A program made the translations under genes and the position numbers. A stretch of 64,000 bases of DNA, taken from positions 186,001-250,000 of the forward strand of contig JANFNE010000030.1 of assembly GCA_024867545.1 (NCBI GenBank), in the 5' to 3' direction. The stretch comes from Phytopythium helicoides (lineage: Eukaryota; Oomycota; Peronosporomycetes; Pythiales; Pythiaceae). This document shows positions 1,124-45,681 of this stretch, one piece after another. The stretch's first letter is position 1. Every line of letters begins with the position of its first letter. The notes beneath the pieces are model-generated. The model saw only the letters and a program-made list of their open reading frames with translations. It was not told the DNA's origin and ran no database searches.

Positions 1124-1159
1124 TATTGGAGCGGCTCGCGTTCGCGACTGGACGCACTT

Positions 1160-2461
1160 CTACGGGTTCACGATGCTCTTGACAAACGCCTCGACGTTGG
1201 CGGCGCGCGCAGCCGTGTTGTCCGGCGACTCGTCGATGACCTTGATGATCTTGGAGCCCATGACGATGCCGTCCGCAAACTGGCTCGCCTGCACAAAGTG
1301 CTCGCGCGTCGACAGTCCAAAGCCGAGCGCCAGCGGGTGCGAGATATTCTTGCGGACTGCAGTACAGCACGGTCAAGTCAGTCAGTCAGTCTACCTGAAA
1401 AGCGTCAATCGACGCAACATCATCAAACAGGCAAACGCACTCGTAGCCATAAACTCCTCGAGGTGCGGCGGCAGCTCCGAGCGCGCGCCAGTCACGCCCG
1501 TGAGGCTCACGCAGTACACGAAGCCGTGGGCGACCGAGTCGATGAGCTTCATGCGCGCCTCCGTGGTCGTGGGCGACACGAGTGCAATGTTGGCAAGTCC
1601 GTGGTTGCGCGCAGCCTCGCTGAACGGCTTGGCCTCCTCCGGCGGGAGGTCCACGACAATGAACCCGTCGACGCCCTGCGCCTTGGCGTCCGCGCAGATC
1701 TTGTCCTCGCCGTACTGCAAAAAGTTGTTGTAGTAGCCCATGAGCACAACGGGGACGACGAGCCCCTTGCCACGCGCCTCCTGGACCGTGGCCAGCACGT
1801 CACGCAGCGTCACGCCCTGATCCACGGCCGCCTGGTGCGCCTTCTGGATCGTCGGGCCATCGGCCTGCGGGTCCGAGTACGGCACGCCGAGCTGCTCACC
1901 GGTCATTGCACCTCAGTTACACACCACTCACCAGCAGCTGCAGCTCGTGCAGCAAATGCCGAGCGCACCTCGATGATGTTGGCGCCGCCGCGCTGCAGCG
2001 CCAGTAGGATGTCGACCGTGTCGGCCGTCGTCTTGTAGCCGCACGTCGTGAACGTGATGAATGCGGGCGTGCCGGACGCCTTGGCGTCAGCGAACACCTG
2101 CGCGATGGACTTTCTGCTTCGGGTGGGAGCGCCAAGTGGAGGGACAGCAAGTTAGCTCATCTGCGCATTAATGCCACGCGTATAGAGGAAGCTCGCTTGC
2201 CTCTCGGTCATGGAGCTGGAGTGCGTGGAGAGGGGACGTGGTGGGGACGGCGCTGGAGACTGACTGACGTTCCGGCGTGGTCGACGGTCTGCGTGGTGTG
2301 TTTGATTGGCTGATATTGGTGATGCGATCGATTTCAGCCAATGGGTGATACGCAGCCACAAGAATGTTGCTGCAATTTGGTGAGGGTGACGAATGCACAT
2401 ACATCGCATCGCGAAGGTTGAAGTGCTCCATGCGCTGCTTGCGATACGAAGGAAACAACAT
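1160..2461 (-). CDS. tryptophan synthase alpha chain (TrpA), stand-alone
   Basis: Cleaves indole-3-glycerol phosphate to indole and glyceraldehyde-3-phosphate in the last steps of tryptophan synthesis. I read four exons: about 2403-2461, 1969-2113, 1441-1891 and 1160-1356 (introns 289, 77 and 84 nt), giving about 283 aa, close to the usual 268. Family motifs run in order: ANIIE then LGVPYSDPQADGPTIQ across intron 2, YYNNFLQYG, DGFIVVDLP, SLTGVTGAR, and LALGFGLST with DGIVMGSKIIK near the end. Loop Asp and catalytic Glu equivalents (NIIE, YSDP) are present. The first exon is the weakest part: I chose the GTATGT donor at 2402 because it keeps frame and gives DAIKSIAQVFADAK; the start could be 2461 or 2431. 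The protein stops after SIVNP without a beta domain, unlike the alpha-beta fusion of fungi. Confidence 0.85.
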
Positions 2462-2623
2462 GAAATCGTGAGAACGACTCGGTCATTGCTGCCAACGCTG
2501 GGCAGCAACTAGGATTTGGTGGTGCGAGTGCAGATATAATGTCCGAAAAAAAAAAACAACTCGGGTGCAAGTGCGAAAATGCTGCCTTGAGAATAATTCC
2601 AGTTGGTCCTCAGACGCTGCATA

Positions 2624-3583
2624 CTACTCGGGCCCTATGCGCTTCTTCTTGGCGGGTTGGATGCGGCTGCGGATGCCGCATGTGGAGCAAATGGGTCGGA
2701 ACTCACAGAAGAGCGACAAGCACACGGGGCAGACGTACGCCGTGGAGATGACCTCGCGGTGGCAGAAGCACATTGCACGGAAGTCGACCGAGTCCTGGGT
2801 AGGCAGCTTCAGAAGCTTGCGCGTGTTTGGATCGGGCAGGTAGATCGATAGCAGATACTGCAGCAGACCGCGCTGATTGGCCGGCTTGAAGTAGATCCCC
2901 CCAGTGAGGTATGCTGCCTGCTGCAAAAAGCTCGAGTGTTCGTTCGCGAGCACACACGCGTCCACCGACACTCCCTTCTTCTGAGCCGAAAAGATGCCGT
3001 TCATGATGGCGATGTAGTGCTCCGACACGTCCGCGGACTTTTGGACGATCAGAATGCGAGGACGCAGGTCCGGCTGCTCGTTGATAGCTCGGTTAATGAC
3101 TGCACGCGATCAAGCCACAACGGCATGTTCTGTCAAAGCCCTCTCAGAACCACCACAGCAGTAGCTCCACGTACAGCAAAGCGACCGCGAGAGAGCCGCC
3201 GCGATGGCCGTGCGCTGGGGCTTGGCCGGATCCGGGGTAGCGGCGCCGAGCTCCTGCAGGCGGCGCATGACGCCAGCGTTGACCTTGGCGGCCTGCTCGG
3301 CACTGCCCGACGTGTCCGCCTGCTCGGGGTTTGGGTACAGCATCGCGCTCTTGCCCGCGTGTGCCGCGATGACCACGATCCGGTTGCTGCGGTGCAGCAG
3401 CAGGTACGCGTTCACGAACACGAGCGCGCTCGCCACGAGCTGCTGCAGGCCGCCCGCGTCGCCACCCGAGGGCGAGAACCATTGCGCTGGGTTGGTGTCA
3501 ATAACAAGCACCAGCAGCCCCTCGGAGGCGCCCTCCGCCGCCGTCGGCGCCCCGCTGCGCTGCGCGTCGCTCGCCGCCTTCAT
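2624..3583 (-). CDS. TFB4: TFIIH core subunit p34 (Tfb4/GTF2H3)
   Basis: Structural subunit of TFIIH, which opens DNA for RNA polymerase II transcription and nucleotide excision repair in the nucleus. Two exons, 3175-3583 and 2624-3099, are split by a 75-nt intron with donor GTACGT; the product is about 294 aa, the family's usual size. The N-terminal half is the VWA-like fold (LLVLVIDTNPAQWF, then VFVNAYLLLHRSNRIVVIAAH). The join reads RSLCFINRAINEQPDLRPRI, as expected. The C-terminus has the zinc-binding region with CFCHRE, VCPVCLSLFC and CSTCG, followed by a basic tail. The start at 3583 is the first Met before the VWA fold. The gene diverges from the plus-strand gene at 3788 over about 200 bp. 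Confidence 0.9.
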
Positions 3584-3787
3584 GCTGCTGCTGCTGCCAG
3601 ATGCTGCCGACCCACCGGCAGCAACACGCGATGCATGTGGCCCACAATATATAACGTGTGCACCACACCAACTCTATCCCGCCCCCTTTTTTCAAATGTT
3701 TGAAAGCCGCCACTATATTGAGAAAGGCATTTCCCGACTGGCGCGCTCGTGCGCACTCCTGCTGCTGCCCTCGGACTCCCTGACGCC
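3584..3787. promoter_or_regulatory. short bidirectional promoter region
   Basis: About 200 bp separate the divergent starts of TFIIH p34 (-) and the disordered-protein gene (+). No specific element was identified; the call rests on gene orientation only. Confidence 0.4.
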
Positions 3788-4495
3788 ATGAACGACGCGG
3801 ACGCCGCCATGTTCTCGCCGCTGAGCGCGCGGGGCGAGCAGCGCCTTCAGCGCCTGCGCGCGTCCATCAAGACGCGCTTCGGCTCAGGCTCGGCAGTCGT
3901 GCGCTCGCTGCACATGCCGAGCGGCAGTTCGAGCAGCAGCCACTCGCCGCGGTCGCGACTGCGCCACCGCCTGTCGGCCGCCTCGCAGGTTACGTCCGAC
4001 GAGATCTTCTTCCAGGAGTTTGGGAGCGGCGAGGAGCTCAGCGGACTCGACTTCGACCTCGTCCGCACGGCGCAGCCCCAAGTTGCCGCGACGACGAGCT
4101 ACGCTGGAAGCCGCGTCCACTCGATCGAGACGTCTGTGTTTGAGAGCGCGCTGCCGGCTCGCTCGACCGCTGCGGTCTCGACCAACTTGAACCAGGTGGT
4201 GCGACCAACCCGCGTGCGCACGCCCAAGAAGGTCACGCTGAAGCGCTCCCGCATCGGCGAGAGCAGTGCTGAGCGCGCCAAGCCGCTTCAGAAGCCCCGG
4301 CTCTACGGCGCGTCGACTTCAATGCGCAGCCTGACGTTTGGCTTCGACCAGCCAATGGAGCGAAAGAGCGTCGGCATGGATGTGGGCGTAAGCACAAGCA
4401 ACGCCTTCTATGCCCACACGTCGCCGAGCAAGCTGCACTTCCCGTCTGCGTCGACTAGAGCTCTGTTCGCGCAGCGATCGGCCCCGCTGCGATAA
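3788..4495 (+). CDS. disordered protein of unknown function
   Basis: Single-exon frame of 235 aa from the ATG at 3788; an in-frame ATG at 3749 would add 13 residues, but MNDADAAMFSPLSARGEQRL looks like the natural start. The protein is rich in Ser, Arg and Thr, with short basic stretches (RVRTPKKVTLKRSRI) and repeated SP/TP or RTP sites, and is probably unstructured. Third codon positions are GC-rich as in neighbouring genes, which supports real coding. I recognise no domain. A nuclear or cytoskeleton-associated phosphoprotein is possible, but this is a guess from composition. Confidence 0.6.
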   Translation: MNDADAAMFSPLSARGEQRLQRLRASIKTRFGSGSAVVRSLHMPSGSSSSSHSPRSRLRHRLSAASQVTSDEIFFQEFGSGEELSGLDFDLVRTAQPQVAATTSYAGSRVHSIETSVFESALPARSTAAVSTNLNQVVRPTRVRTPKKVTLKRSRIGESSAERAKPLQKPRLYGASTSMRSLTFGFDQPMERKSVGMDVGVSTSNAFYAHTSPSKLHFPSASTRALFAQRSAPLR

Positions 4496-4681
4496 GCTGT
4501 CACACCGACGTCAGTGTAAGTTATTTGCGTTATTTCAGAGCTCGAGAGAGTATGGATCGCAGCATAAATCGCGTTGGAGTTGATACAGATTGCCCACTTT
4601 ACCTCAGCTCTGTCTATGAGATGCGAACTCTTGAAAACCATGCAAAGATATAAAGCTCGCTATTCAAGCAGGCTCGATTGC

Positions 4682-7475
4682 CTAGTAGATCATGGCCTCC
4701 ATGCGGTTCAGGCGCTCGTTCGTACCCGCCGGGAGGCGGAACTTGATCATGCCAGCGAAAGTGACAAGCAGCTCCGCCTTTTCACGCAGCGACGCGACCG
4801 CCAGGCGCCGAACGTCTCCTGTCAGCTGCGTCTTGACACGGTCTGCGTCGCGCACGAGGCACTCCATGTAGCCCAGCAGCAGCACGTGGAAGTTCTGGCG
4901 GACACATTCGTCAAACGCCAGGAACCGGTCCACACAGAGCGCCAAATTGCTAGAGTTCTGCGTCGGCACAACCTCGAGCTCATCCACGAAGCGGATCGCA
5001 TCTTCGTACTGCTGCTTCTCAAAGATCTCGAGGAAGATGTTCACATTCAGCAGTGTCTGGAATGCAACGGCTGCCGTGCGTGCGAACTTGTTGGAGATTG
5101 CCAGCACCCACGGGAAACGCATCCACTTCTCAGCAAACTCCTTAGCCTGACGGAACCACTCTTCGCGCTCAGGGCGAGCAGCACTCAGCGTCGCGCTGAG
5201 CTGTGCGTTCAGCAGCATAATGATGCCTTCAATGTCTCCAGCGGCCTTGAGTAGCGCAAGAGCATCGTGCGGCAAGCCACGAACTTCGGCTTTCCGAGCA
5301 GCCGAGAGGATAAGCTCCTTGACCTCCTCCTCGGGTTCGTCCTTGAGTAGTCGGTCGTACAGACCACGTGTGCGAGATCCATCGGTGTTATTGGTAACTC
5401 CCGCGAGGAGATCGAACTTGCGCGTGTCAAGAAGAAGCTCAGACAGGAGTTCCTTCTTTGCAGAAAGCTCCGAGATGCAAGCAACGTAGTCAGCAGCTTC
5501 ACTCGCATTGCCGCGCTGGAAGCCGTGAATGTACTGGCGGATCAGGCGCACAAAGTCGACGGTCGTCTCATCTTCTTCGTCCACCATCGAGAACGACGAC
5601 GTGCAACGTAGCAACCCGTAGTGATGGAGCGAAATAGCAAAGTGAACCTGCTTCCAGCAGGAAACCCTTCGAGGCGATATACTTAATCGCCTTCTCGAAC
5701 TCCTGCGTCGTTAGCAGCACCTGGAAGTAGACAAAGGAGAGCAAGTTGCCATCTGCTCCAGCACCCTCACTTCCACCAGCTTCGAAATGCCCTGGTCCAT
5801 ACTTGGCGATTCCCTTAGCCAGACGCTCGATAGAATAGGTGCTATCAGGCGCCGAGCTAGCGGACGTCCGCTGAATGAAGCACAACCGCTGCCACAGGTA
5901 GTCTTCAATCGTGAAGAGAATTCGCGTCTCTCGGGCGTTTGCGTCGCCAAAGCTCAGCAAATTGAGCACGGAACGCTCATACGGGTCAACGACAGCAACA
6001 GCGTCAATCGACGAGCTTGTGAGTCGGTGGTACCGGTCTAGAACCTTCTCGTACTCAGCTGGGAACTGCTTGGAAAACGCGTTAAGCGGTGATGATGAAG
6101 AGCCAGCCATACTCTTCTTCAGCTGTGCGCGGTATCGAAGAGCGGCAATAATGTTTGCGTCGATCGATGTGTCTCCTGCACGGGAAGCGCTAGCTGCAAG
6201 CTCGACAGCTTCAGCATCACCACCACAGCGAATAGTGTAGTAAAGGATAGCCCAGATATTGGCATCCGTGCTGGCAATATCAGCACCACTTCCATTAGCA
6301 GCGTAGCGAGAGCTCTGCATGTGGCGCACGAACGCGCGAACGTTAGCGACCAAATCTGGGACACCACCCGTCGCCAAGTGATTCTGTTGAACAGTCTGCT
6401 GCACGAGTGCGCGGAACTGGTTCTCAAGGAACACGCGAGCGCCAAACGCAAAACGATGCGAGAGCGCCGACTGCGCACTGGGAGAAGCGTCAATGCTGCG
6501 AGCGTTGACGAACTCTCGCTCGGACAACGTGACACGGTGGCGCGATGAATCGCCTCCAGCCAGCATATCGCTCAGCAGACTCCAGCACTTGAGCACGGCC
6601 TCCCACTTCGATCCAACCACAGATGACGACACATTGTCAGCACACACGCGACGGAAACTGCCGACAACGTCAAATTGACTGCGCGTGTTCGGGACGCGGC
6701 CGTTGTTCAGTTCCCGCACAACACCATAGTACTTGCGCATCTCCTCGTTCATGGAGGCGTTGTCGCTGGTATGCATCTGCGCCATGCGCCGCTGGGCAGT
6801 TGCGCCGTACTTGGCGCTCGCAGCGGCTTGTTCGTCAGCCGCGAATCGCGGCTGCCCGGTGAACGACACGCCGCTCAGACCGATTCCGGAGCCCTGAGCA
6901 ATGTCATCACGCTTGGCACGCTCAGCGCTGTTGAAGATAGACTCGCCCACGCCATCCTGCTGCAGCACGCGCGGGTAGTTGCGGATGCCGAGATGCTTGG
7001 ATCCGCCCAGATCTTCCAACAGACGCTGCTTCGCGCTCTCAAAGTCGTCAATCATAGCGCGGTTCATGCGGTCGTGCGTGGCTTCGGCCGTGCGGCGGTT
7101 CACGTCTTCGATGGCCGTGAGCACGATCATTTCGTGGTGGTGGGTCAGATACCCCTCGAGATCGGTGGCGCCGAGCGGCGTCTCCGCCTCATACTCTGGG
7201 GCGATCTCAAACGACTGCAGCTCCTTGGACAGCTTCTCGGCGTCGATGCCCTTGGCGGCCAGCAGGAAGTTGGCCTTGTCGACGCCGCCGGCGGCCGAGC
7301 GCTTCTTGCCCTTGTTGGGGCCCTGCGCCTGCTGGCGGTGGTACAGCTCGCGCGAGGCATCATCCAGCTGCTCCAGGCGCTTCTCCAGCCGCGGGATGCC
7401 CACCTCGTCGATGCCCGTCGTGAGCTTGAGCGAGCTCTGGTACAGCGCGCGGAAATCCACTTCGTTCGACGCCAT
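4682..7475 (-). CDS. NUP93: nucleoporin NUP93/Nic96, with an apparent frameshift
   Basis: Scaffold nucleoporin of the inner ring of the nuclear pore complex. The start MASNEVDFRALYQSS at 7475 is followed by a coiled region and then the long alpha-solenoid of the Nic96 family, about 930 aa in all (human about 820). The frame is open from 7475 to about 5648, then continues in the next frame to the stop at 4682. The break falls inside a conserved stretch: GFLLEA in one frame is followed directly by VHFAISLHHYGLLR in the next, with one surplus G (cc at 5647-5648 on the plus strand). There is no room for an intron. The C-terminal part (DFVRLIRQYIHGF, ELLLDTRKFDLLAG, MIKFRLPAGTNERLNRMEA) is typical. 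The frame change is probably a sequence error. Confidence 0.9.
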
Positions 7476-9036
7476 CGCTACGCGGTCGACGCTCGGGAAA
7501 GGACGCACGCGTCGGGCCTGACGGAGCGCTAGGGAGGGAAAGGACACGGGAGAGAGCGCAGCAGCAGGCTCAGTCGAGCAGCTTGAGCCAGCGAGGCGAG
7601 GCGCGCGGCGGTACAGCAGCTCGCGAGGTGGGCGGGCGCTGCGCGGTTCGTGGACGACTCGATTGCCGCGGGGGAAACGAGTGCGCGAGTCCCTCGTTTT
7701 GGCTGTTGGGTGGGGATGGTGTCCCTTTTTGAACTAAACGAGGGACTATCAGATGACGTTGAAGTGACCTGTCGGCCTCATGAGCGCGCAGCTGCTAGTA
7801 CAGCTCCATGGAGCCTGCCGGTGCGTGTGTCAAGATGGTGGGCTTTCTCTTTATGAGGGGCGTGCTTTATCTTGGTCGGCTGTGCGTTCAATGCAGGAGC
7901 TCGCTGGATTCGGCGCGATCAGCAACTGGAACGGCCAGCAGATTGTCTCGAGTCGACCGGCTTTGCGAGCTGCTGTCGCGCAATTTGTCTCCCAGCTTCA
8001 GCCACCGCCAGCCCAGCGAGCCAAAATTTTGGCCGCGCTGAGCCGCTCGTGATGCGGCGAGATAGATACGTGGGCTTGCTCCACTCGCAGTCGCAGCGGA
8101 CAGTTCAGAGCACTTCGTGCCCTTCGCTCAGACTCTGTAGTGAGCTGGGCTGGGCTGCACTGATGATGATATATGCGCCGGTCACCGGAGCACGGGAGAA
8201 ATCGGCACCCAGCTACAGCACAATCAGGTTGACATGACAACCGTGCAAGGTTGCACTCACTCCCAACTAGAATATCTATGTAACGCGCGGGTGGGTCAGT
8301 CACGAGGAAGCAAGGGAGTGTGTGGCCGCTCGCCATGCTCATCCGCTTCGCGGCAGGGAGGCCCAGAATTGCTAGAGCTTGGCTCCCCTCCGTGACTATT
8401 TTGATGATGGCGTCCCCACGTGCGACCTCCTGGCCTCGTCAACGGGCCGTCATGCCCTCGCGCGGCCTCCACATCGTCGGCGGATCTTTGCTCGTCGCGT
8501 CGACGTGACACACATGGTCCGCCCGTCGACTGGCGCGCGCGCGTTGCAGTCGGAACTAGCCGGGTAAAAGGAGGCTTCGTCCCCCAATCCGCCGCGAATT
8601 AGCCTAAATCCCGCGTGCCTAAACGAGGGACGGCGTCCCGAATCCCTCAACAAGCGCAGAGAATAGAGAGAGAGAGGGGGCGTCACGCCCATCGTCGATC
8701 GCGTTGCGCGTTCCGGCCGCCCCCGCCCGCCCTGGTTGGGAACAAACCACAACGAACTGGGCGCCGGACGAGCCGCGCGGGAGCCGCGAGAACCGCGAGC
8801 GCCGCGCCCTCCCAGCCCCTCGACGCCTCGCGAGCCGGAGCCTCGCGCTTCCGCTCGCTTCCCCTCGTCGCGCTTTCCCTCACAAGCGGCGAACCGCGAG
8901 AGCGGCGGCCAGTGGGTTGACCCGGCGCGAAACCAACCGGCTCGACTGACTCGCTAACAAGGTACGCGCGTCCCGGCGCCTTATCTGCGGCGGGGGAGGG
9001 GAAGTCGCGCTGATCCGACTGCGCCGCTAGGTGAGA
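7476..9036. other. 1.5-kb intergenic, divergent promoter
   Basis: Separates NUP93 (-) from the large scaffold gene (+). A plus-strand frame of 90 codons (7780-8052) has acceptable codon use but no recognisable domain, and I do not call it. A likely 5'UTR intron of the downstream gene lies at 8962-9030 (donor GTACGC, acceptor CGCTAG), ending 6 nt before its ATG. Confidence 0.5.
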
Positions 9037-12000
9037 ATGGCGTGGACGTGCTCGGCGTGCGAGTTCGCGGCCAACGAAGACGGCCAGGATGCCTGCGTGG
9101 CGTGCGGCTCGGAGCGCCAGGAGGAGGCGCCGGCCTCGAACGGCACGGCCAACGGCGACGCGAGCAACGTCGTGGTGATCGAGCTGCCGGCTAAGGAAAA
9201 GCTCGGCGTTAAGCTCATGCCGCCCAAGGACGGCGTTATTAACCACGGTCTCGCAATCGACAACATCAACAACCCACTGCTGGATGGCAAGGTGCAGGCG
9301 GGTGACCTCATCGTCGCCATCGGCGGCCAGAACGTCGACGGTATGGGCTTCTCGGACGCCATCGACCTCATCCGGAAGCTGCCACGCCCGCTCGCCATCT
9401 CGTTCGAAATCGACCATGCACGCCGCGAAGAGGCTGTGCGCGAAAAGTTCAAGCGCTCCAAGGAGAACGACCTCGACAAGGAACTCACGACGTACGCCGT
9501 CGTGTTTGACGACGGTCCCATGGGTCTCAACCTCGAGGAAGCCGTGCGGTATGGTATCGACGGTGCCGTCGTGCGTGCGCTGAAGGGCCAGGCCAAGACC
9601 AGCGGCATGATCAGCATCGGCGATATTGTGTACAAAGTCAACGAGGTCGACGTGCTCTGCATGCCATACAGCGAGGTTATGACTGTGTTGCGAAACGCGA
9701 CATCGCCCAAGACGCTCCAGTTCGTACCGAAGGACAAGCTTGCCGATGTGCAGCGCGTCAACTCTCGCCACTCCGAGTCGTTCCGTATCCGTGAGTCTAC
9801 GTCGGCAGTGAAGCAAAAGCTGATGCGAAACCCGCGTCTGGTCAAGGATATCGACAATAACGAATCGGAGGATAGCCGCTCGATTGCGCAGCTTATCATG
9901 GACAACCAAGCAGCCACGATCAAGAAGGGGCGCATGTACAAGCAGGGACGTGTCATGCGCTCGTGGAAGTCGCGCTACTTTGTTTTGAGTGTGTCCAAGA
10001 TGGAATACTTCAAGAATCCGAGCTCCACGACTTCTCGTGGTGAAATGAGTTTCCTGAACCACCGCTGCACTGTGCGCTCACTCCCGGGGTCCAGTGATCT
10101 AGTGTGCAGATCTCCTAATGTGACTGCTGAGTTCCTGCTTGAGCTGCGCGTTGATGAGCGACGCATGGTGATGGCATGCACATCTGAGTCTGACAAGAAG
10201 GGATGGATGGATGCAATTAAGCTCGCAATTGACGCGTCCAAGACTGTGAACCGTACGCAAAACCTTGGACAGTCCCTTCGCGAGGCGAAGGCGCTTCGCA
10301 CCCAGCGCACAGACAGCTTGTCGCTGGAAGGCTCTCAGACTTTCTTGGACCGAAACGCTGGTGGCCGTCTGTCGCAGTTCAACTATGAAGCGTTCTCAAC
10401 GCCTGTCGTGCACGTTGCTGTCATTTCAGCGACGAACCTGGCGAAGTCTGGTAGCTCGGTTAATGCGCTGTGCGAGGTTACCGTTGGCGCGGAGACGTTC
10501 AAGACGTCGATCGTCAAGAACCAGCGCTCGCCTGTTTGGAAGCAAGACAACTCAGCCTCGTTTGAAGCGCCGAGCGAAGACATGGTGGTTGAGATTCGCG
10601 TCTTCAATGAGCATGTGTTCCGCGCGTCGGAGCTGATTGCCACTTTGACGATCCCCCTGCGGTCGTTGCCAAACATGCAGAAGGCAACCAAGAAGTACCC
10701 TCTTGCTGTTGGTAGCCGTTCTGCTGGTGCTGTGCTTACGCTGTCCCTGGAGTACGTCAATAAGGCCAAGGCGTACCAGGAAGATCAGGAGCGTGGTCGC
10801 TTTGATAGTATGGGAGGCATCATGAATGAGCGTGATGGTATGGCCAAGATCAAGGCCGAGGCTCAGCTGGCAGCTGATGAGGCTAGCCAGCATGCCGTTC
10901 GGGCCGAGGAGGAGGCTCGTATGCTGCTGGAGCAGGCTCGCAAGAAGGCAGAGGCTGCCATGGCTGCTGCTCGCGAGGAGCAGGAACAAGGTAAGGCCGC
11001 TGTGGAGGCCGCTATGGCGGAAGCTGCGCGCGCAAAGGAGGAGGCCGAGAAGCAAGCCGCCGAAGCGCGCCGTGCACAGGCTGAGGCCCAAGAACTCATT
11101 GAAGCGAACCGCCGGATTCAGGAACAGTCATCCCAGGCACAGTTCGAAGGTCCGTCGGTGTTCGCACCCTACCGTGCCATGGTTATGGACGGTATCCCGA
11201 TCGAGCAGGTGAAGGCAAAGATGAAGGAGGACGGTGTAGACGACACGAGCATCACCGCGTTCTTCGATGGAATTAACTCGTACGACGAGAAGATCCGCGC
11301 GCTTCAGGCTGAAGTCGAGAAGCTGAAGCGCAGTCGCTCAACCCGTCAGCGCGAGGAGCCACGTCCGCAGGACATGCTGGCTAATCTGGACATTTCGAGT
11401 GACCAGGTCAAGCTGCTGCGCCGTCTGCTGAAGCTTGAGAAGCAGTTGCAACAGGCTGGTATTGCTGTTGCCGCAGATATTCCGTACGAGGAAGCCAAGG
11501 CGAAGGTCGAGGAGATTGCGCGTCGTATGGGTGAAATCGGTTCGGCTGATGTCACGCATCCCGATCCAGCAATTCAGAAGCAGCTGCGTGAAGAGTACTA
11601 CCGCCTGGAACAGGATATGGAGAAGTACAACACGGCCCTGATGTTGACGGACGAATACGCAGCGGAAGAAGCGCGTAAGGAGCGTGAGTGGGAGGAGGAG
11701 AACTACGACGAGAATATGAAAGCGCTGAAGGCGATTCGTCGTATGATGCCTGTGGACATCAAGAAGATGTCGGAGGCGGAGTTGACTGCGACGAAGACAC
11801 CAACCGGTGTTATGTTCTCTCGCGAAGTCGCTCGTAAGTTCAAGCGTACGAACGTGCTCGAGTTGCTACGTATGAACCCGCAGGACATCGCAAAGAATCA
11901 CCCGTCACTGCTAGAGAACTTGCGTGTGACTGGTCTCACGGTGACAGAGCGTCGTGCTCTTCACATGCACCTGAAGGACATTGCAGAGACGTGGAAGTCT

Positions 12001-13335
12001 CAGCAGGGTGAGGAAATGACCAAGAAGAAGTATGACTGGTTCAAGACTCTCAAGGAGACGTTCAAGACGGTTGTCAACTCGTACAACAAGCACGTTGAGC
12101 AGTATGGTCCCGCGGCCAACCACCCGTACGCCACTCGTGACGACCCTGATATTGGTTGTCCTCTGATCGGAAAGCAGTGTCCGATCAAGGCGGACAAGGC
12201 TCCGGCGTACGATGTTGACTACGGTTACCCTGCCGAAGATGCGTACATGGAATCGACCGTCCAGAAGGGTAACGTCGATGACGCTGGTGCGCGTGCGCTT
12301 GCAGAGGCTCAGGAGCTGATGCGCACGAAGCTTGCCAACTCCCGTGCCGACGCCCTCAAGAAGCATTACAAGAACGTGCGCCTCGTGGCTGAGGCCAACG
12401 GTGTCTGTGAATTGATTGATACAACCATGGACCAGGTTGAAAACAAGCAGCTTCATTGGTTCCAAATGCGCCTGAAGCACCGTTTGGCCCGCACCGAGAC
12501 GGCCGGCACCATCAAGGTCGAGCTGGCCGAGTTCGGCGAACTTGTGAACGATATTCGTCTTGCGACTCTCAAGTTCGCAGAGCGATCCGGCATGAAGCTG
12601 TCGGGAAAGCGGGACCCATCGACAGATGCTCCCGACACGCGATCGTCTATCGAGTGTAACCTGGTGCTGCTGTACTGTGATGCTGTGAATGACTGCTTCG
12701 ACGGCATGGACGAGCGCATGGATGAAGTCAAGGCGAGTGATAAGCGATTGCGGTCGGCGATTCCGGCTATGCGCGACCTCCTCAAGGATCTCCTGGAGAA
12801 GTCTCGCGAGACGCTGAGCAAGCTCAAGGACAAGGGACCGCCGGTTGCGCGCAAGGTCAAGAAGCGTGCCGATATCCTCAAGGAGGCCAAGGAGAAGAAC
12901 GCCGCGGAGTCCGGCGGCGGTGCTGCGGCTGCCAGTTCCGAGGAGGCTGCTCCTGAGCGCCCACCGCACCCAATGATGGGAGGACGCGGTGGCCGTGGAG
13001 GTCGCGGTCGTGGACGCAATGACCTGTTCGCTGCTATTTCAGCTCGTGGACGTGGCGGTGGCGGCGATGAGGATGGCGGTGGCGGCGGTGGCGGCAACGA
13101 TCTCATGGCAGCGATTCGTGGTCGCGGCCGTGGTGGTCCAGGTCGTGGTGACCTGTTCTCCGCCATCAAGGCTCGTGGCGGAGGCGGCGGCGATGGCGAC
13201 GACAGCGGAGGTGGTGGTCGTGGAGGTATGGACCTGATGTCTGCGATCCGTGCTCGTGGCAACGGCCCTGGACGTGGACCTGCGGCTGGTCGTGGCGATT
13301 TCTTGGCGGCAATCGCTGCACGCAAGAAGGATTGA
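9037..13335 (+). CDS. zinc-finger/PDZ/PH/C2 scaffold with WH2-like RGG tail
   Basis: Single uninterrupted coding exon, 1,432 aa, starting MAWTCSACEFA. In order I see: a RanBP2-type zinc finger (1-30, WTCSAC...CVAC); PDZ 1 (about 46-128); PDZ 2 (about 151-233, carboxylate loop GPMGLNL); a PH domain (about 294-399, KKGRMYKQGRVMRSWKSRYF); a C2 domain (about 457-574); an Ala/Glu coiled coil (about 595-705); a motif YRAMVMDGIPIEQVKAKM (about 711) like that in WASH-complex CCDC53 proteins; a long helical region I do not recognise (760-1290); and a Gly/Arg tail with five DLxxAIxxRG motifs at 1329, 1355, 1372, 1399 and 1421. Those motifs resemble the helical start of actin-binding WH2 motifs. A membrane-to-actin scaffold is inferred, not shown. 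Confidence 0.9.
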   Translation: MAWTCSACEFAANEDGQDACVACGSERQEEAPASNGTANGDASNVVVIELPAKEKLGVKLMPPKDGVINHGLAIDNINNPLLDGKVQAGDLIVAIGGQNVDGMGFSDAIDLIRKLPRPLAISFEIDHARREEAVREKFKRSKENDLDKELTTYAVVFDDGPMGLNLEEAVRYGIDGAVVRALKGQAKTSGMISIGDIVYKVNEVDVLCMPYSEVMTVLRNATSPKTLQFVPKDKLADVQRVNSRHSESFRIRESTSAVKQKLMRNPRLVKDIDNNESEDSRSIAQLIMDNQAATIKKGRMYKQGRVMRSWKSRYFVLSVSKMEYFKNPSSTTSRGEMSFLNHRCTVRSLPGSSDLVCRSPNVTAEFLLELRVDERRMVMACTSESDKKGWMDAIKLAIDASKTVNRTQNLGQSLREAKALRTQRTDSLSLEGSQTFLDRNAGGRLSQFNYEAFSTPVVHVAVISATNLAKSGSSVNALCEVTVGAETFKTSIVKNQRSPVWKQDNSASFEAPSEDMVVEIRVFNEHVFRASELIATLTIPLRSLPNMQKATKKYPLAVGSRSAGAVLTLSLEYVNKAKAYQEDQERGRFDSMGGIMNERDGMAKIKAEAQLAADEASQHAVRAEEEARMLLEQARKKAEAAMAAAREEQEQGKAAVEAAMAEAARAKEEAEKQAAEARRAQAEAQELIEANRRIQEQSSQAQFEGPSVFAPYRAMVMDGIPIEQVKAKMKEDGVDDTSITAFFDGINSYDEKIRALQAEVEKLKRSRSTRQREEPRPQDMLANLDISSDQVKLLRRLLKLEKQLQQAGIAVAADIPYEEAKAKVEEIARRMGEIGSADVTHPDPAIQKQLREEYYRLEQDMEKYNTALMLTDEYAAEEARKEREWEEENYDENMKALKAIRRMMPVDIKKMSEAELTATKTPTGVMFSREVARKFKRTNVLELLRMNPQDIAKNHPSLLENLRVTGLTVTERRALHMHLKDIAETWKSQQGEEMTKKKYDWFKTLKETFKTVVNSYNKHVEQYGPAANHPYATRDDPDIGCPLIGKQCPIKADKAPAYDVDYGYPAEDAYMESTVQKGNVDDAGARALAEAQELMRTKLANSRADALKKHYKNVRLVAEANGVCELIDTTMDQVENKQLHWFQMRLKHRLARTETAGTIKVELAEFGELVNDIRLATLKFAERSGMKLSGKRDPSTDAPDTRSSIECNLVLLYCDAVNDCFDGMDERMDEVKASDKRLRSAIPAMRDLLKDLLEKSRETLSKLKDKGPPVARKVKKRADILKEAKEKNAAESGGGAAAASSEEAAPERPPHPMMGGRGGRGGRGRGRNDLFAAISARGRGGGGDEDGGGGGGGNDLMAAIRGRGRGGPGRGDLFSAIKARGGGGGDGDDSGGGGRGGMDLMSAIRARGNGPGRGPAAGRGDFLAAIAARKKD

Positions 13336-35318: not shown

Positions 35319-38300
35319 CTAGTACTTGCTAGAGCGGTCCACGATCGAGAAGCGCATCGCCAGCAGCGTCTTGAGCGTCTCCTTTGCAATGTTGATATCG
35401 TACTCCTTTTCATCATCTGTCAGGAAGACGTACGGCACAAGACAAGGGTGCTTTTTGGCTGCATCGTCGCGGGCGGGGCCGTATGTCCAGCCCTCGTCCA
35501 TACGGCCCTTCGACCACACCTCGTGCGCGTTCTCAGCCAGCAGATCCACCAGCCGCAGCAATCGAGGCGGTAGCTCGACGTTCGAAGTATCGATGGGAAG
35601 AGGGCGATAGATCTCCACGCCATCCTCTCCGTAGACTGTGTAGTATGGCGAGTCCTCCATGAGGCTACTGCGACGAAAGCTCATTGCCTCGCGCAGTAGC
35701 GACGGCATGGCAGCAGGCTTACTCTTTCCCGTCGAAGAGCCACCCGCCGCTGAGCCATTCGCATCTCCGTCATTCGAGGCTTGGTCAACGTCATCGTCCG
35801 ATTGAGGTGCAGCGCTTGTGGCGGCGTTCTGTCCGCCAAGCAACGAGCTGTTGCTGCCTCCCCCTCCATTAGTACTCGATGCATCTTCAAACGATGACAT
35901 CACAGACGGAGAGCGAGAAAACGTGCGCGCACTTCCACTATTGGAGCCCGTGTGGCTGCTGCTGCGCACGATCGTGTAGTTCATGAACACAATAGTCTTG
36001 AGCGTCTCCACCGATGAGCGATAGTCAAATGCCTGCTCCTCCACAGACAGCAATTTGTAGGGAATGAGATTCGGGTGTTTCTTTTTGGCGTCATCGCGCG
36101 TCGGGCCGTACTGCCAGCCCTGCTTTAGACGTTCAAGTGCCCACATATCGTGACAGTTGCGTGCAAGCATATCTCCAAGGTGCTCGAGGTGTCCAAGCTC
36201 CACCTTGGACGTGTCCACCGGCTTCGGTCGGTAGTTGTGTCCTTCTTTCTCACGCGACGGCATATCAATTAAGCACATGCGGAACCGGTACATGACATCA
36301 AGAGCCTCCTGACGAACTTCTGACTGGGAGCAGAGAGCCCGTCGCTTGTCCTTGCGCAGATAAAGATCCAGCATGCGCGAAATCTCATCAAAACGCAAAC
36401 TCTCACGTCCATCTGCGAGTACGCTCGTGAACAATAAACCGAGGTGGTAGTCGTCGACAAGCCGGTGTGTCTTGGAGTAACTCCAGAGCTTCGTTGCTTG
36501 CAAAAGAGCCACCTTGAGTTCTTTCACAAACGTTCGAGCAACGTGATACACTAAGTGCTGCAGGGGGATTCGCAACTTCTCGCCACCAAGAAGCTCCAGC
36601 ACACGCTGACGCGACCCCCGGCGGCCTCGTCGTCGTCCTCGAAGAGGTCCATTACCCATCATAGCCTCGATATCACTATCCTCAAAGGAACCAAGAGACG
36701 AAATTGTACGTGGAGGACCGAACACTCCGTTTCGTCGAGGTGCGACTTGATCGCGTTCATCCCAAAAGTCGTCATCACCTTCCGTGTCCGTATCCTCGTC
36801 GCCTTCGTCTCCATTTGCACCAAGAACGACGCATTCGACCGACAACTTGTTGTGATGCACAACCTTCAGAGTCAAGCCATCGCCTAGAAGCGAATCACCC
36901 TCGAGGACGGATCGTAATTCCGATGGGGATCATGTCTTTGATAGTCTGGTGGTCAAAGTTTTCGGATAGGCGAATATGGGTCACGGCATCCTTGTCTGGG
37001 ATACCATTCGAGTTTCCTGCGCCACCTGGTGCAGCTGTGTGAGTACCAGTCTTCCGGTCCCCAAACTGGATGCGGCGATCAAACTTCATGCCGAAGCGCA
37101 GCAAGGCTACAACGCGCCAAACGGCTCCGCGAAACAACTTGCGAGCACGCTGGCGCATTTCTTCCTGGTCCACAAGGTTGGTAGAGATGAGCCTTACCGT
37201 CTGTCGAGGTACAAGGCGGATTACGTCCTTCTTGTGGGCCATGACAACCGTGGGGGAGACTGCTTGCCAATAGCTGCGCAAACGCGCGAGCACATCGTAC
37301 TCAACTCCATCAGAGCCGTCACCTTCGCCGTCAGCACCATTTTTCGCCACCTCATAGTACTCTGAAAGAATCGCGACGAAACATATTCACAAGGATCTGG
37401 AACACCAACACGACGAAGCTCCCAATAAAGATCGGGGCAAGCCTTGGGTTTGCTTGGCGTAGACGTGGGTAATCCATCTCCCCGGCAAGCATGTGGAAGC
37501 AAGTGCCATAGGAGCGGCCAATTGTTGAGAATTCTTCCAGAGCAAACCCGAAAGCATAACTTCCCATTGCTGAGTAGCCGAGGAAAATCAGGTTGAAGAT
37601 GACGAGAAAGCCCATTAGGTCACGCATCGCCATGCCGAGCACTCGCCACAAGAGGTTCAACGTCGAGTTCATGCGCAAGAACTTGAACACCTTAAGAAGA
37701 GAAAACGCCGATGCGATCGATGACAAGTCAGCCAGTTGCTGGAAGGAAGTAAGCAAGAGCTGCATGCTCGAGTGGTCGAGAGCGACTGCGGCAGTTGCCT
37801 CAGCCGCAGCCGACACGTTTCCGCTGCCAGCGTCGAATGCATCGCTCGCACTCAAGAAATTGCTCAGCAGGCCGGTTTGCAAGAGCGCATCGAAGTGAGC
37901 CGCGAACGCCCACGAGGCGACATAGTAGCGAACAGCCCAAATCAGCACTGAGGCTAGCACCGCGAGGTGGGCGAGCTCGAACAGATTCCACATATCCGAA
38001 TACAAGTATGTGCCGAGTCCCATTGTTGCCATCTCGGCAACCTCGCCCATACAGTAGGTGATGAAAAAAAGAACCAAAGCAACCCACAGCACAACTCGCC
38101 CATCGACCCACGAGTATGCTGCACGTACGGCTCCAATTACTTCTCTCACGCGCTTGATAATTGAGCTCACAGATGACGGAATCGTTTGCTCCCCAGTTTC
38201 CACCCCGTCTGCGGCTTCGTCAATATACACAATCTCGTTGTGTTCCATCCCAACAACACGCAGGTGAGAGCTGTGCGCGAAATGGTCGAGGTGGCCAGAC

Positions 38301-39748
38301 GGGTGCATTGTGAAGACGTGCAGACCAATCGTGAAGACACGTGTCACAGGGTTGAGAAGCGTGAACTCGATCGAGAGAGCACGGGTAGCTGGTGACAGCC
38401 AAGAGTCTGCTTGCAAGTCTTCAACAGACGTCGAGCAAAGGTCGACAGCATATCCGCCCGTACCATAGTCAAGGTCGAACGACGAGGTTGTAGAGGTCCC
38501 GGCTGAAGTGGTCGTGGTCGTCGCAATTGAAGAAGCAGAGTTTGTCGTTGTTGCCCAAGTCAGCGGAAAAAGCAGCAGCGATGTCGACGAGAGGTGAGGA
38601 CGTAGGTCGCCGAGCCCATCCTGCCAAGCGTATGAGCGATTCTCGGCTCCAACAATCGGGGACTTCAACTCGACATCGGGGCTGTAGAATGGGTAGCAGT
38701 CCGACACCCAGTTGTCGTAAATTCGGCACTTTTGCTTCCGAACACGAACCTGGCGGAACCGCACGCCACCGACTCGGGTCCATTGCGCACCGTTCTCAGC
38801 ATCATTTCCGTTCTCCTCGTCGCCACCACAAACACGCATCTTGATCGTCTCCGCAAATTCGTACAGATCGGAGAACGAGTGCACGTCACACACGCCTTCT
38901 TCGCGGCAGGTAAGCGCCCCAACCACATCGTTCTGCTGGTAACTGTCTTCGACCGGCAGCCACGCGACGAGCGAGAAAAACACCGAAAGAAACACGAGGT
39001 ACACGATCAGCTCCTGGTAAAACTGGCGGCGCTTCATCTCTTTGTACTCGGACGCAACCGTCTTGAGGTCAAGCTTCTTTTTCTCCATATGGATACCGCG
39101 GTAGACAAGCGACTGGCCCAATCCTGGCACACCAGCGCGCGGCCACATGTTGAGGAATCCTCTCGCCGCGCGCTTTGAGGACACGACCTGATGCGCGATG
39201 CCCGCAAAGGACTGCGCGCTAGCAGACGCCTCTGTTTTTTTATTGGGAGTGCCGCCTTCATCGTCTGTCGTTGACCAGCCGTCGTTGCTGTTGTTGGCGC
39301 TGGCGCGCACGCTCGCCGCGCGGATGTTGGAGCGCACAATGGCCGCCACGTTACGCAGACTAGGCTGGCGCAGCTTCTTGACTGCATCCAAAAACACATG
39401 AAAAGCCACAGCGCGTCAGTTGAAAGCAGTTCCACCTCGTCATCGCGCGCACCGCCACGCACGCTTGGGCTTCTTGGGCGTCTCGACACGCTCGTCGTCC
39501 TCCTCGCTGAGCGAGTTCTGGCGGCCCGCGAGGCGGTGGCGGCGCCGCAGCGTTCCCACGACAATGCCAGAGGCGCCAGCGCCAGCAGCGGCGTTCCCAC
39601 TGCCCGACCGCGCCCGCAGCGCGCGCGAGCTGCCCGTGTTGCTGTTGCTACCGGAGCCCGAGCCGCTGCGCAGGCGACGAGGCGGCGCCGTGTTCTTCCG
39701 CGGCTTAAGCGGCGGCGCGGCCTCGGCCAGCGGCGCACTCGGCTCCAT
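35319..39748 (-). CDS. polycystin-type (TRPP) cation channel with C-terminal RyR repeats
   Basis: Exon 1 (39463-39748) encodes a disordered Ser/Gly leader; an 81-nt intron leads to the channel. A first membrane helix (ELIVYLVFLSVFFSLVAWL) is followed by a long extracellular polycystin loop (GGVRFRQVRVRKQKC, IYDNWVSDCYP, IEFTLLNPVTRVF), several further helices and a pore (GRSYGTCFHMLAGEMDY), then FQILVNM. The frame changes at an AAA run (37379-37381), after which FVAILSEYYEVAKNG continues correctly; a second change near 36909 joins ...IGITI to VLEGDSLLGDGL and so to the next frame. The rest has two RyR repeats: YRPKPVDTSKVELGHLEHLG with GWQYGPTRDD, and IYRPLPIDTSNVELPPRLLR with GWTYGPARDD. The second join is inferred; two adjacent genes (stop 36895, start 36875) are the alternative. 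Confidence 0.75.
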
Positions 39749-41627: not shown

Positions 41628-44600
41628 ATGCTGGACGCGGCGCCCGCCGCGCTGTCGGACGCGCAGCTGGCGCGGCTGCAGCTCGTGGGCTACGTGTCGA
41701 GCGCGGCGTCGCTCATCGGCGTCTCGTACGTGCTGCTCCACCTGCTGCACCAGCAGTGGCGCGCCCGCGCGCCGACCTGGACGGAGGGGCCGCGCGCAGA
41801 TGGACTTCTCCGGCAAGCTCGTGCTCGTGCTATCGCTATTCGACCTGACCACGCTGCTCGCGCGCGTCGCCGGCCGTGCGCCCAGTCGGCAACGTCGCGC
41901 TATGCGACGCTCAGGCCGCGCTGTTGCAGGCATCGAGTCTCGGCAGCTGCATATGGGTCTGCTGCATCGCGTTCAACCTGTACAGGTGGCTGGTCGCAGG
42001 GCGAGTCGGTGGCCGCGCGCCAGGCCAGGTTCAGGCTCTACCTCGGCGTCGCCACCGTGCCGTCGCTCGGGCTCGTCGCGTACCACCTCGCCAGTGCGTT
42101 GTGGTTGGACAGGCAATTGCGTGGGCATCACTAACGCCGCGTTCTTTTTGGCAGCTCGCAAGTACGGAGATGCGACCTTCTACTGCTGGATTCGCGAGAT
42201 CCAGTACATGTTCCTCACATTCTACGCCTTCTACGTCCTCATGGTCGTGTTCAACTTTGTGCTGCTCGTGCTTATCCACATCAACATGAAGCAGCGTGTC
42301 GCTCGGTGCGATTGTGCACATATCAAATACTCTGCCTAGCTCCAGGATCTAACGTCCCAGTCTTGGTGTTTACAGTCACGACACGATCGAGGCCGACACT
42401 TCATCCATGCTCATCCGCCGGAAGCTGTTGCTGTACATTGTCGTCTTCATTGTGCATCGCTCCCCAATGATGATCTATCGCTGTAAGTTAGGCGTACCAA
42501 GCCCTATTTTGCAGGCTCTAACGCACCCAACTAAACTGATATTGGTCCGTTGTAGTGATTGAAGCAGTCAACTCGCACCACGTCGACTTCGGGTTATTCG
42601 CTCAGGTGCTTCAAGACCTGAACGGACTCTCCAATTCAATCGTCTATGGTGGACTTTGTCGGAAACGCTCTACTGGAAGGTCTTCCCCTTATGATGATCG
42701 CCTAGAAGAGATTGAGAGCATATCGTCGCCGACTGAAAGCATGCAGAGGCCGTATATCGCGCCGAAGAAGAAGCGCCAGCTGACACAGGTTGATGACGAC
42801 GGAGCAGACTCGATCGTACTTCGATCAGCCTCAACCGGTTCGTTTCGCCTGACCTCGACAGAATCTGGGGCTGCAGTTGCTGCTGCAGTTACGTCCTTCA
42901 ATCTGTCTTCACGTTCTACTCCCGCGAGCATTCTCGAGTCAGGCGGGATCAGCAATCCAACTAGCCAGCCGAGGCCATCAGAGAACCGTGAATCCATTTC
43001 CAACAGCGGTCCTTCTTACACGCTCCACTTTATTTGCAAGTGCAAAAGCGCAACCATGGTCACATACTACCAGACCAGCAGCAAAATCAGCTGAGCCAAT
43101 ACAAACAGCGGTGGAAGAACCATTTTTCAAAGGTGAAAGGAGTAGCAGAAGCAACACAGACAGCAGCACAAGCGCCTGTCAAGGTCACTGCGCGTCCCGC
43201 AGCTCCTCTGGCAGCAAAAGTCGCGATTTTTGCCTCGACATTCAACATGGGCGAGAAAGACGTGGATGAAGAACAACTGGTACGTTTATCCGATTCTTGA
43301 TGAGCACGATATGTTATCAAGTGAACTGACCGTGCATTGTCATAACTTGGATTAGCCTTCGTGGATTCCAATCGGCCACGACATCTACGTGATTGGCGTG
43401 CAAGAGTGTATGGATCTCGCAGATCTACAGTCCAAGGTCCTTCACCACCTCATGACAAACTCTGCAACTAAATACGTGCACTATTCGTGCGAGATCGGCA
43501 AACGCGCAACTGCACTCGGCTATCACGGATATATTGCGCTGAGTATCTTTGTTCGTGAAAGCGCAGTGATCTCTGGGAGATTCAAGATGCCATCTCGGAC
43601 TAGCGGAGGCAGCAAGAGTGCGCAAGAAGTGTTTCGCGGCAAGTCGCTGCTTGTTTTTGGCCGAGCATCGAACAAGGGAGCGGTTGGCATGTCATTCCGT
43701 TATGATGACACGTCATTCGCGTTCGTAACGTGTCATCTGGCATCTGACTCTTCCTCATCGGGTCGGAGAAAAGCTAAGAACCAACGGAACGGAACGCGCC
43801 AAGTGGTGTCTCCGGGCGACAGCGCACAAAAACAGAAGAAAGTATGAGCGTTGTTGCGGACGAGCTCGAAGATGAACTCACGTCAAGCAGGGGTGGTCTA
43901 GGAAACAATCAGCATCCACCATCCAAGGTACACAGACGGAATCAAGACGCGATGGAGATCTTACAGCAGCTATACCTTGACGAGGAAGACTACGGATTTG
44001 GGTTCCCACATCTTCACCATCACAGTTTCATCCTCGGTGATTTCAATTATCGTATGTCTCGCCAGGGTGCAACTCCTTCGGAGATGCTTGATTCACTTGT
44101 ATCAATTGGTGCTCATGACCTCCGATTCCGCCGCAGTCCAACCCCTGATAGTGTACAGCTACGCAACAAGCCAATGGTTCCTTCTCTCCCTATGTTGTTG
44201 GCATCTCCAACATCTCCAGCAATGCTTCAACGACCAAGCGATCAGTCGCCAACAAGTTCAATGAGCTTTCACGAGTTTATGACGCCACGCATGGATCACC
44301 GGCAGAGCAGTGCGAGTATCAATAGCTCTATTGAGATCGAGCTTGGGGCAACATCCCAAAGCACAAACGATACTGACGGAGCACCCAGCGATCAAGATGA
44401 TCTGACCGCCGTTGCGAACAGTGCCGAGCGTGTAGCTCGCGAGCTCAAGTCGCTGCTTCATGAGCATGACGAGCTGTACCAGCTGCGGCTGTCCAACCAG
44501 ATCTTCTTTGGCTTCCACGAGCATGAAATTACCTTCTACCCCACATTCCGACGCATTCGCGGGCAAGCCCTCGAGAATCCGCGCGACCCGCAAGAGTTTG

Positions 44601-45681
44601 TGCGAAACTATTCTCTGGCTGCAAGTCACGGCGGCTTCCGCGTCCCGTCGTACACGGATCGCATTATGTTTGCGTCTCTTGACGGGATGCAGGGAAATAT
44701 CGAGTGCGAGTCGTATTCCTCCTGTGAGGCAGTGACTTCGTCCGACCACAAGCCTGTTGCTGCAGTCTTTCACGTAACACTTCCTCGTTCGTACATTGGG
44801 ACGCAGCAATTTGTCACTGACAACTCGGCGTGGAATGCCAACTCGACCGGCGCCAACCCGAATATCCTTCAGTCGAGTCGCTTCACGGGCTCATTCCTCG
44901 CTGCTAGCCGCATGCGTGATGTTCCTGGTGCCTGTGAGTTGCGATTGCGCATCGAGTTTCGATCCATTCGGTGGCTGGACGCGATCGACTCGGCAATGTT
45001 TGACCGAGCCGAGCACGTTCAGTTTGGCTTCCTCTTTCCCCTCCCGTCTGAAGACGTGTTTGCGCAGCAGCGCAAATTGTACGAAGTTGCCGAGCATCTG
45101 ACATGGGGAGAGCGTCCTGGCGGGGCGATGGCGAGCAATGGCAGCAACAGCAACAGCACGTTTGACGAGTTTGCATCGACCATCACGCCGACATCCAACT
45201 TCCATACCATCAAGTGGAATGACTTTGTTGAGCGCGGGCTCCGCTATCATACAATGGCGGGGGCGACGGGAAACAAGCACGTGGCCGTGCTGCTACGAGC
45301 ACCGTCCTCTCGTGGTGGACGATCACTGTCAAAGGGTACCTCGGTCTCGCGCCTACGGTGTGGAGGAGGCGGCGGCAGCAGTGGACACTCGTCTTCGGTT
45401 TCTTCCATGGCGGCGCTGTCTCCAACGCCGTCGACACCGTCGGCCGACACGCCAGGACGTCTTTGAGCAGCGCAAGTGGCGCGTCCACGCTGTCGATGTC
45501 AGTCGGGTCGACATCAGTTGGCGCACTCGACCAGCTCTTTGGCCACGGAACGTTCTGTGTGGACGCTGGTGGAGCCAAACGCGAGGTAGTGGTGCCGCTC
45601 ACCATCGGAGGGCGGCTGCTGGGGCGGCTACAGCTCCGTGTGTCGCTCAAGATGCGTCAGCAACGAACCAAGGGCCGGTGA
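41628..45681 (+). CDS. GPCR-inositol polyphosphate 5-phosphatase bigram, with frame breaks
   Basis: A seven-helix receptor of the cAMP-receptor-like class leads into an inositol-polyphosphate 5-phosphatase. Helix segments: YVSSAASLIGVSYVLLHLL; KLVLVLSLFDLTTLL; CIWVCCIAFNLYRWL; YLGVATVPSLGLVAYHLAS; FLTFYAFYVLMVVFNFVLL; LLLYIVVFIVHRSPMMIYRL; DLNGLSNSIVYGGL. Introns: 42094-42154, 42306-42375, 42483-42555, 43280-43355, all in frame. The phosphatase has FASTFNMGE, IYVIGVQEC, SNKGAVGMSFRYDD with VTCHLA, FILGDFNYRMS, YPTFRR, PSYTDRIMF and SDHKPVAAVFHV, covering the catalytic set. A C2-like end follows. Reading through needs single-base changes near 41795, 41863, 41993, 43012, 43830 (A run) and 45460. 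The receptor would couple ligand sensing to phosphoinositide turnover at a membrane; ligand unknown. Confidence 0.75.

Follow-up and report, generated by a model that had tools for sequence, protein, structure and literature searches.

Does one gene of the oomycete Phytopythium helicoides join a seven-transmembrane (7TM) receptor to a phosphoinositide phosphatase, and what would such a protein do? The locus that raises this question lies at positions 41628-45681 (+) of a 64,000-nucleotide stretch of contig JANFNE010000030.1 (hereafter the window), where a preliminary description had read a cAMP-receptor-like G-protein-coupled receptor (GPCR) joined to an inositol-polyphosphate 5-phosphatase. 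Its coordinates, strand, and domain content and order hold in translations, Pfam searches and an alignment to the orthologue P0021 (41628-45666). We propose that the locus is very probably a single oomycete gene of the GPCR-inositol polyphosphate phosphatase (GPCR-INPP) type, with a SHIP-like phosphatase-C2 unit and, more tentatively, a role in receptor-gated lipid dephosphorylation; the identification as a GPCR-INPP-type gene, taken by itself, is close to certain. A single chain holding both a receptor and a phosphoinositide phosphatase would allow a cell to respond to external signals by changing its membrane lipids, with no separate effector needed.

Architecture of the receptor-phosphatase gene

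Searching with the spliced protein of L035, one of the related loci L034, L035 and L036 of the same genome, returned at least 37 proteins at E ≤0.001 among the matches listed. These include the Phytophthora agathidicida entry GPCR-INPP 2 (P0003); the GPCR-INPP 1 entry of that species (P0114) is a homologue too. When the 37 proteins were compared with the window by tblastn, P0021 and P0025 (Bremia lactucae) scored highest. Protein-to-DNA alignments permitting introns of 40-160 bases and frame breaks were made with P0021, P0025, P0023 and P0024. P0021 (1136 residues) aligned over residues 1-1136 at 41628-45666, giving 1103 codons, 658 of them identical, and 0 stops. The start at 41628 relies on P0021, as the starts of the remaining three proteins lie 5' of this position. 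The aligner placed further introns that vary by protein and may represent gaps in variable linkers. The gene is laid out as follows.

41628-42093 (+), receptor exon 1, with the start methionine and transmembrane helices TM1-TM4 spread over three frames (P0021 model helices, orthologue alignment)
41742-41784, 41878-41896 and 41999 (+), frame changes inside receptor exon 1 (orthologue alignments)
42094-42154 (+), GT-AG intron of 61 bp (4 of 4 orthologue alignments agree)
42155-42305 (+), TM5 exon, ARKYGDATFYCW...FNFVLLVLIHINMKQR (7tm_2 E 0.0013, below cut-off; tblastn to L034, L035 and L036)
42306-42375 (+), intron of 70 bp (4 of 4 orthologue alignments)
42376-42482 (+), TM6 exon, HDTIEADTSSMLIRRKLLLYIVVFIVHRSPMMIYR (translation, tblastn, orthologue alignment)
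42483-42555 (+), intron of 73 bp (3 of 4 orthologue alignments)
42556-43091 (+), TM7 (LNGLSNSIVYG) and Ser-rich linker (open frame 42540-43091)
43037-43279 (+), end of the linker and first phosphatase motif, STFNMGE at 43235-43255 (motif scan, orthologue alignment)
43280-43355 (+), intron of 76 bp (4 of 4 orthologue alignments)
43356-43844 (+), first half of the 5-phosphatase (VIGVQE, ASNKGAVG, TCHL), with a frame break at 43770-43839 (PF22669 E 1.6e-11)
43778-45463 (+), 562-residue open frame with the second half of the 5-phosphatase (GDFNYR, VPSYTDRI, SDHKPV) and the start of a C2-like domain (PF22669 E 2.1e-22; SHIP1 E 3.5e-14)
45457-45678 (+), final strands of the SHIP-type C2, FGHGTFC...VPLTIGGRLLGRLQLRVSL, with a frame change near 45.45 kb (structural match of P0021 residues 401-1132 to the SHIP2 phosphatase-C2 unit)

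Ten translated pieces of the gene were searched separately against Pfam. Exo_endo_phos2 (PF22669) scored above its curated cut-off on both phosphatase frames, 43356-43844 and 43778-45463. The receptor fragments fell below the cut-offs singly because they are too short, the top one being 7tm_2 with 18.5 bits against 20.6 on 42154-42297. The receptor of P0021 clears the cut-offs of both 7tm_2 (30.2 bits, cut-off 20.6) and Dicty_CAR (24.0 bits, cut-off 21), and so the profile evidence for the receptor half comes from the orthologue. With respect to the Dictyostelium cAMP receptors, which to our knowledge carry no enzyme, the Dicty_CAR cut-off is reached by the receptor parts of P0021, P0023 and P0017, while P0025 falls below it; 7tm_2 is the better match in P0021, P0023 and P0025, and P0017 matches Dicty_CAR only. 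The original reading of a cAMP-receptor-like receptor joined to a 5-phosphatase is thus borne out by the P0021 domains and alignment and by the published GPCR-INPP type. An NCBIfam search with four proteins gave no match.

The catalytic motifs that had been noticed by eye, STFNMGE, GDFNYR and SDHKPV, were all located in open frames, together with VIGVQE (43389-43406), ASNKGAVG (43665-43688), ILGDFNYR (44030-44053), VPSYTDRI (44642-44665) and SDHKPV itself (44741-44758). Three motif patterns each matched once in the window, compared with a mean of 0 in 200 base-shuffled windows. The homologues and a tree put the gene within the oomycetes, close to Phytophthora, Bremia and their relatives.

Surveying the PDB with the 562-residue frame returned human SHIP1 as the first-ranked hit (E 3.5e-14). 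The structure model of P0021 contains seven helices followed by a phosphatase-C2 unit like that of human SHIP1/2; residues 401-1132 match the SHIP2 phosphatase-C2 unit, and in the model the C2 domain packs behind the phosphatase. SHIP1/SHIP2 are thereby the best match both structurally, over the two domains, and by PDB sequence, with 26% identity across the structural alignment. SHIP family members carry an N-terminal SH2 domain. No SH2 family is listed in Pfam for P0021 at E ≤0.01, and its N-terminus is instead the 7TM receptor. As the SH2 domain is absent, the window protein is like a receptor-tethered SHIP and is not SHIP.

The GPCR-INPP bigram class was named in 2018 (van den Hoogen et al., PMC5784254; van den Hoogen and Govers, PMC6033456), and PMC5784254 reports seven such genes for P. 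infestans and between one and nine for other oomycetes. Those proteins and ours are alike in having an N-terminal 7TM receptor, then an inositol polyphosphate phosphatase, and an oomycete host, and the window gene adds a member to this class. It differs from published GPCR-INPPs in that a SHIP-type C2 domain, absent from the preliminary description, is recognized here, and in that its assembled copy has frame breaks; the linker of its clade is also longer than that of L035. The main text of PMC5784254 contains neither the term 'C2 domain' nor 'SHIP', and 'C2 domain' is likewise missing from the available text of PMC6033456.

The assembled DNA changes frame around 43.0 kb, which could mean that receptor and phosphatase are two adjacent genes with separate transcripts. 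The paralogues speak against this. The 49.06-Mb, 100-contig assembly, in which the window is G000:C25:186001-250000, was searched with the phosphatase frame, PF22669 and Dicty_CAR, and 13 stretches were retrieved. The TM5 piece of the window matches upstream (5') of the phosphatase, on the same strand, in L034, L035 and L036, and the TM6 piece matches in L034. In L035 a single frame, 5221-4337 (-), covers TM5-TM7 and continues into STFNLGE and the QE motif without a stop or intron; in L036 the frame 1791-2429 likewise covers TM5-7 and reaches the first phosphatase motif, which reads TFDMNW in this locus. Since one open frame crosses the junction in both loci, the receptor-phosphatase fusion is physical, and the two-gene reading was dropped on these single-exon junctions. 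The orthologues, moreover, are single proteins, and an MMETSP transcript entry holds both domains, making separate genes very improbable. In the window, the TM7 frame is open across 42540-43091, which, as far as the sequence can show, speaks against the stop between 42.6 and 43.2 kb that the preliminary description had named, together with a promoter and separate transcripts, as refuting a fusion. Its statement that the receptor runs straight into the phosphatase stands for the domain order and for the paralogues and orthologues, where both parts lie in one polypeptide, but not for the assembled window DNA, whose frames are broken.

Frame breaks in the window copy

Several observations weigh against the proposed reading of the locus. 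The assembled copy has at least four frame breaks: those at 41742-41784, 41878-41896, 41999 and 43770-43839 are required in all four orthologue alignments, whereas L034 and L035, aligned to P0001 by the same method, have 0 breaks. The C2 match is not significant by sequence alone, and the L036 clade keeps the fusion despite a changed active site, so catalysis is not the sole selected function of such fusions.

The first three breaks lie in the first 372 bases, with no space for an intron. For the one near 41.75 kb, an inspected GT-AG candidate leaves the wrong frame, and the aligner, allowing introns of 40-160 bases, still breaks there in all four alignments. Near 43770-43839, two of the four alignments add an intron yet still require the break. 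The two shifts of frame at about 43.0 and 45.45 kb fall in poorly conserved linkers and are read as introns with P0021; indel or intron are both possible. Additional breaks at differing places (one with P0025, one with P0024, six with P0023) were put down to sequence divergence and left out of the count, as this is probably what they reflect. For L036, alignment to distant homologues gave two or three breaks whose positions differ and which we do not trust. A codon-usage frame model for counting breaks was abandoned, since its sensitivity to short exons was too low.

The breaks could be real, in which case the window copy would be a recently inactivated pseudogene whose protein is no longer made. 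Besides the number and clustering of the breaks and the break-free L034/L035, this is favored by long frames that are intact in other parts of the window (1434, 1150, 787 and 721 residues), by the adjacent CBS and RING genes, which appeared unbroken by eye, and by the DNA search of the assembly, which gave no second copy of the locus, its one hit being a short match (77%) in L034. Against it, stop codons number 0 in the frames aligned to all four orthologues, and the gene retains 53 of the 54 columns invariant across 23 homologues. The comparison of constrained positions points both ways. The window gene departs at 25 of the 351 columns (7.1%) invariant in the four orthologues. In leave-one-out comparisons the departures were 5.1% for P0021, 8.8% for P0025, 12.8% for P0024 and 14.1% for P0023, and on the sets leaving out the same proteins the window gene departed at 10.0, 10.2, 9.4 and 11.7%, respectively, which is above P0021 and P0025 but below P0024 and P0023. 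A second gene of the window, Nup93/Nic96, is also split: its frames, 5571-7733 and 4685-5710 (-), leave the two halves 19 bases apart, with no space for an intron, and no other Nic96 match turned up in the assembly. This suggests residual indel errors in the assembly. Because the sole Nup93 match, in the same window, is broken too, assembly errors are the most likely source of the breaks and are strongly favored over decay; inactivation is unlikely.

Proposed function and the L036 clade

Considering the gene, its domain order, its conserved catalytic motifs and the co-inheritance of both halves in relatives, all of which are observed directly, we propose the following mechanism. An N-terminal seven-helix, cAMP-receptor-like receptor would be followed by a Ser-rich cytosolic linker and a SHIP-like, Mg-dependent 5-phosphatase with its C2 domain. 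The receptor would hold the enzyme at the membrane, and bound ligand would alter the rate at which the 5-phosphate is removed from PI(4,5)P2 or PI(3,4,5)P3. A phosphoinositide signal could in this way be ended or redirected without a separate phospholipase step. The lipid substrate is suggested by the SHIP-like fold and C2 domain, and catalysis on a membrane lipid is, on these features, probable. Direct control of the fused enzyme by ligand, suggested by the fusion itself, is put forward more tentatively, at slightly less than even chances. The view in the preliminary description that this is the most direct ligand-to-phosphoinositide route in one polypeptide is likewise conjectural. GPCR-PIPK proteins (RpkA type) similarly fuse a 7TM receptor to a phosphoinositide enzyme (PMC5784254, PMC6033456); theirs is a kinase where GPCR-INPP has a phosphatase, the expected reaction is the opposite one, and the GPCR-PIPK kinases may perhaps oppose GPCR-INPP.

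The enzyme might also simply be anchored at the membrane, or it might ride as a passenger on a normal GPCR. In the latter case the receptor would be an ordinary G-protein-coupled one and the phosphatase constitutively membrane-held, with no ligand gating. The L036 clade lends this some weight. L036 (G000:C67:113001-121000), at 1128-5035, is a GPCR-INPP paralogue that shares with its oomycete orthologues, among them P. infestans PITG_17353, a set of conserved catalytic replacements (TFDMNW, QH, GNLNYD and STH); receptor and fold are retained with these residues changed, and the clade is probably, judging from its sequences, a conserved pseudophosphatase receptor. An inactive enzyme part is also among the possible modes drawn in Fig. 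2E of PMC6033456. By contrast, the window gene keeps its catalytic motifs, and the Asn of NMGE, the Glu of QE and the Asp residues of GD and SDH are kept in all 18 reference sequences that lie outside the L036 clade, a pattern of conservation that suggests selection on catalysis. We regard the passenger arrangement as a doubtful alternative, though one with a real chance, to ligand-gated dephosphorylation.

In the literature searched, which did not extend to supplementary tables, we found no published report of the clade with changed residues. In PMC6033456 (2018) the activity and regulation of the enzyme part of GPCR bigrams were left open, and the coexistence of conserved active and conserved altered clades provides a natural control for that question.

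Distribution of the fusion and neighboring loci

A search with a nine-member profile returned at least 56 proteins among the matches listed, and for 51 of these 56 the precomputed annotation lists PF22669 together with a 7TM Pfam family, the exceptions being P0041, P0064, P0076, P0087 and P0088. Both domains occur in Aphanomyces euteiches P0083 and in the brown alga Ectocarpus fasciculatus P0068, as well as in P0051, which has an MMETSP transcript label, so that both lie on one assembled RNA. Pfam confirmed the two domains in P0051 (Dicty_CAR 6.8e-19) and P0068 (Dicty_CAR 1e-14); the fusion is therefore wider than the earlier literature states. Many further sequences show the same architecture, and those included in the trees group in a supported clade of their own. 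No report of the brown-alga case was found in the literature searched, and the available text of PMC3879662 and PMC9667082 describes no such fusion. Nannochloropsis was already listed for this architecture in 2018 (PMC5784254); by name it is absent among the listed matches of both the L035 query and the nine-member profile. With Ectocarpus, P0051 and Nannochloropsis, calling such fusions a hallmark of oomycetes, as the preliminary description did, is too strong, and the matches outside oomycetes suggest that the fusion is older than that phrase implies.

The receptor tree (29 sequences, 295 columns, window and L036 left out) gave support of 100 for clades 1, 2 and 3; for the non-oomycete group it was 99 when COSAG is excluded and 72 when it is included. 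In the phosphatase tree, support was 99 for clade 1 including the window, 100 for clades 2 and 3, and 100 for the non-oomycete group without COSAG. The deeper branching order disagrees: clade 3 joins the non-oomycete side in the phosphatase tree (support 90) and other oomycetes in the receptor tree. The midpoint-rooted phosphatase tree also places the PH-phosphatase P0033 and the COSAG sequence beside fused members at nodes of support 34 to 57, and the 7TM-fused set is not monophyletic in it. The trees thus do not prove that the fusion arose only once. We consider it an evenly balanced proposition that GPCR-SHIP fusions predate the split between oomycetes and photosynthetic stramenopiles, and that oomycetes kept both active members (the window and L034/L035 clades) and the dead L036/PITG_17353 clade, which retains the 7TM receptor and SHIP phosphatase-C2 fold and could serve in phosphoinositide binding, in regulating the active members or as a decoy for them.

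Within the P. helicoides assembly, paralogue counts are lower bounds. L034 (G000:C25:31001-39000) and L035 (G000:C57:1668001-1676000) lie on two contigs and are 94% identical over 4.4 kb, so only two further loci were counted; they are either divergent haplotypes or a recent duplication. Contigs C6 and C20 carry another phosphatase pair with near-equal PF22669 scores. L037 (C74) was rejected as a further GPCR-INPP, its two best proteins matching the phosphatase only and forced alignments requiring many breaks. Matches of the two best proteins per locus were also confined to the phosphatase part in L038, L041, L042, L043 and L044, and there were none in L039/L040. Three Exo_endo_phos2 matches cluster at G000:C73:163502-172496 (-), two of them without an upstream receptor-helix run by hydropathy; these two and L038, L041, L042 and L043 show at most two helix-like segments upstream in a weak scan that finds 4 segments in the window gene itself. 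L045 and L046 are receptor-only loci.

Elsewhere in the window, two frames at 35322-39415 (-) contain RyR (PF02026, E 4.1e-65) and polycystin/PKD channel domains. This domain content resembles that of PKDRR channels, which have been reported from oomycetes (PMC7399828). The region ends 2.2 kb short of the receptor gene, and a CBS-domain gene lies in between. At 9031-13332 (+), a 1434-residue open frame with C2, PH and PDZ domains may encode another membrane-lipid signaling protein.
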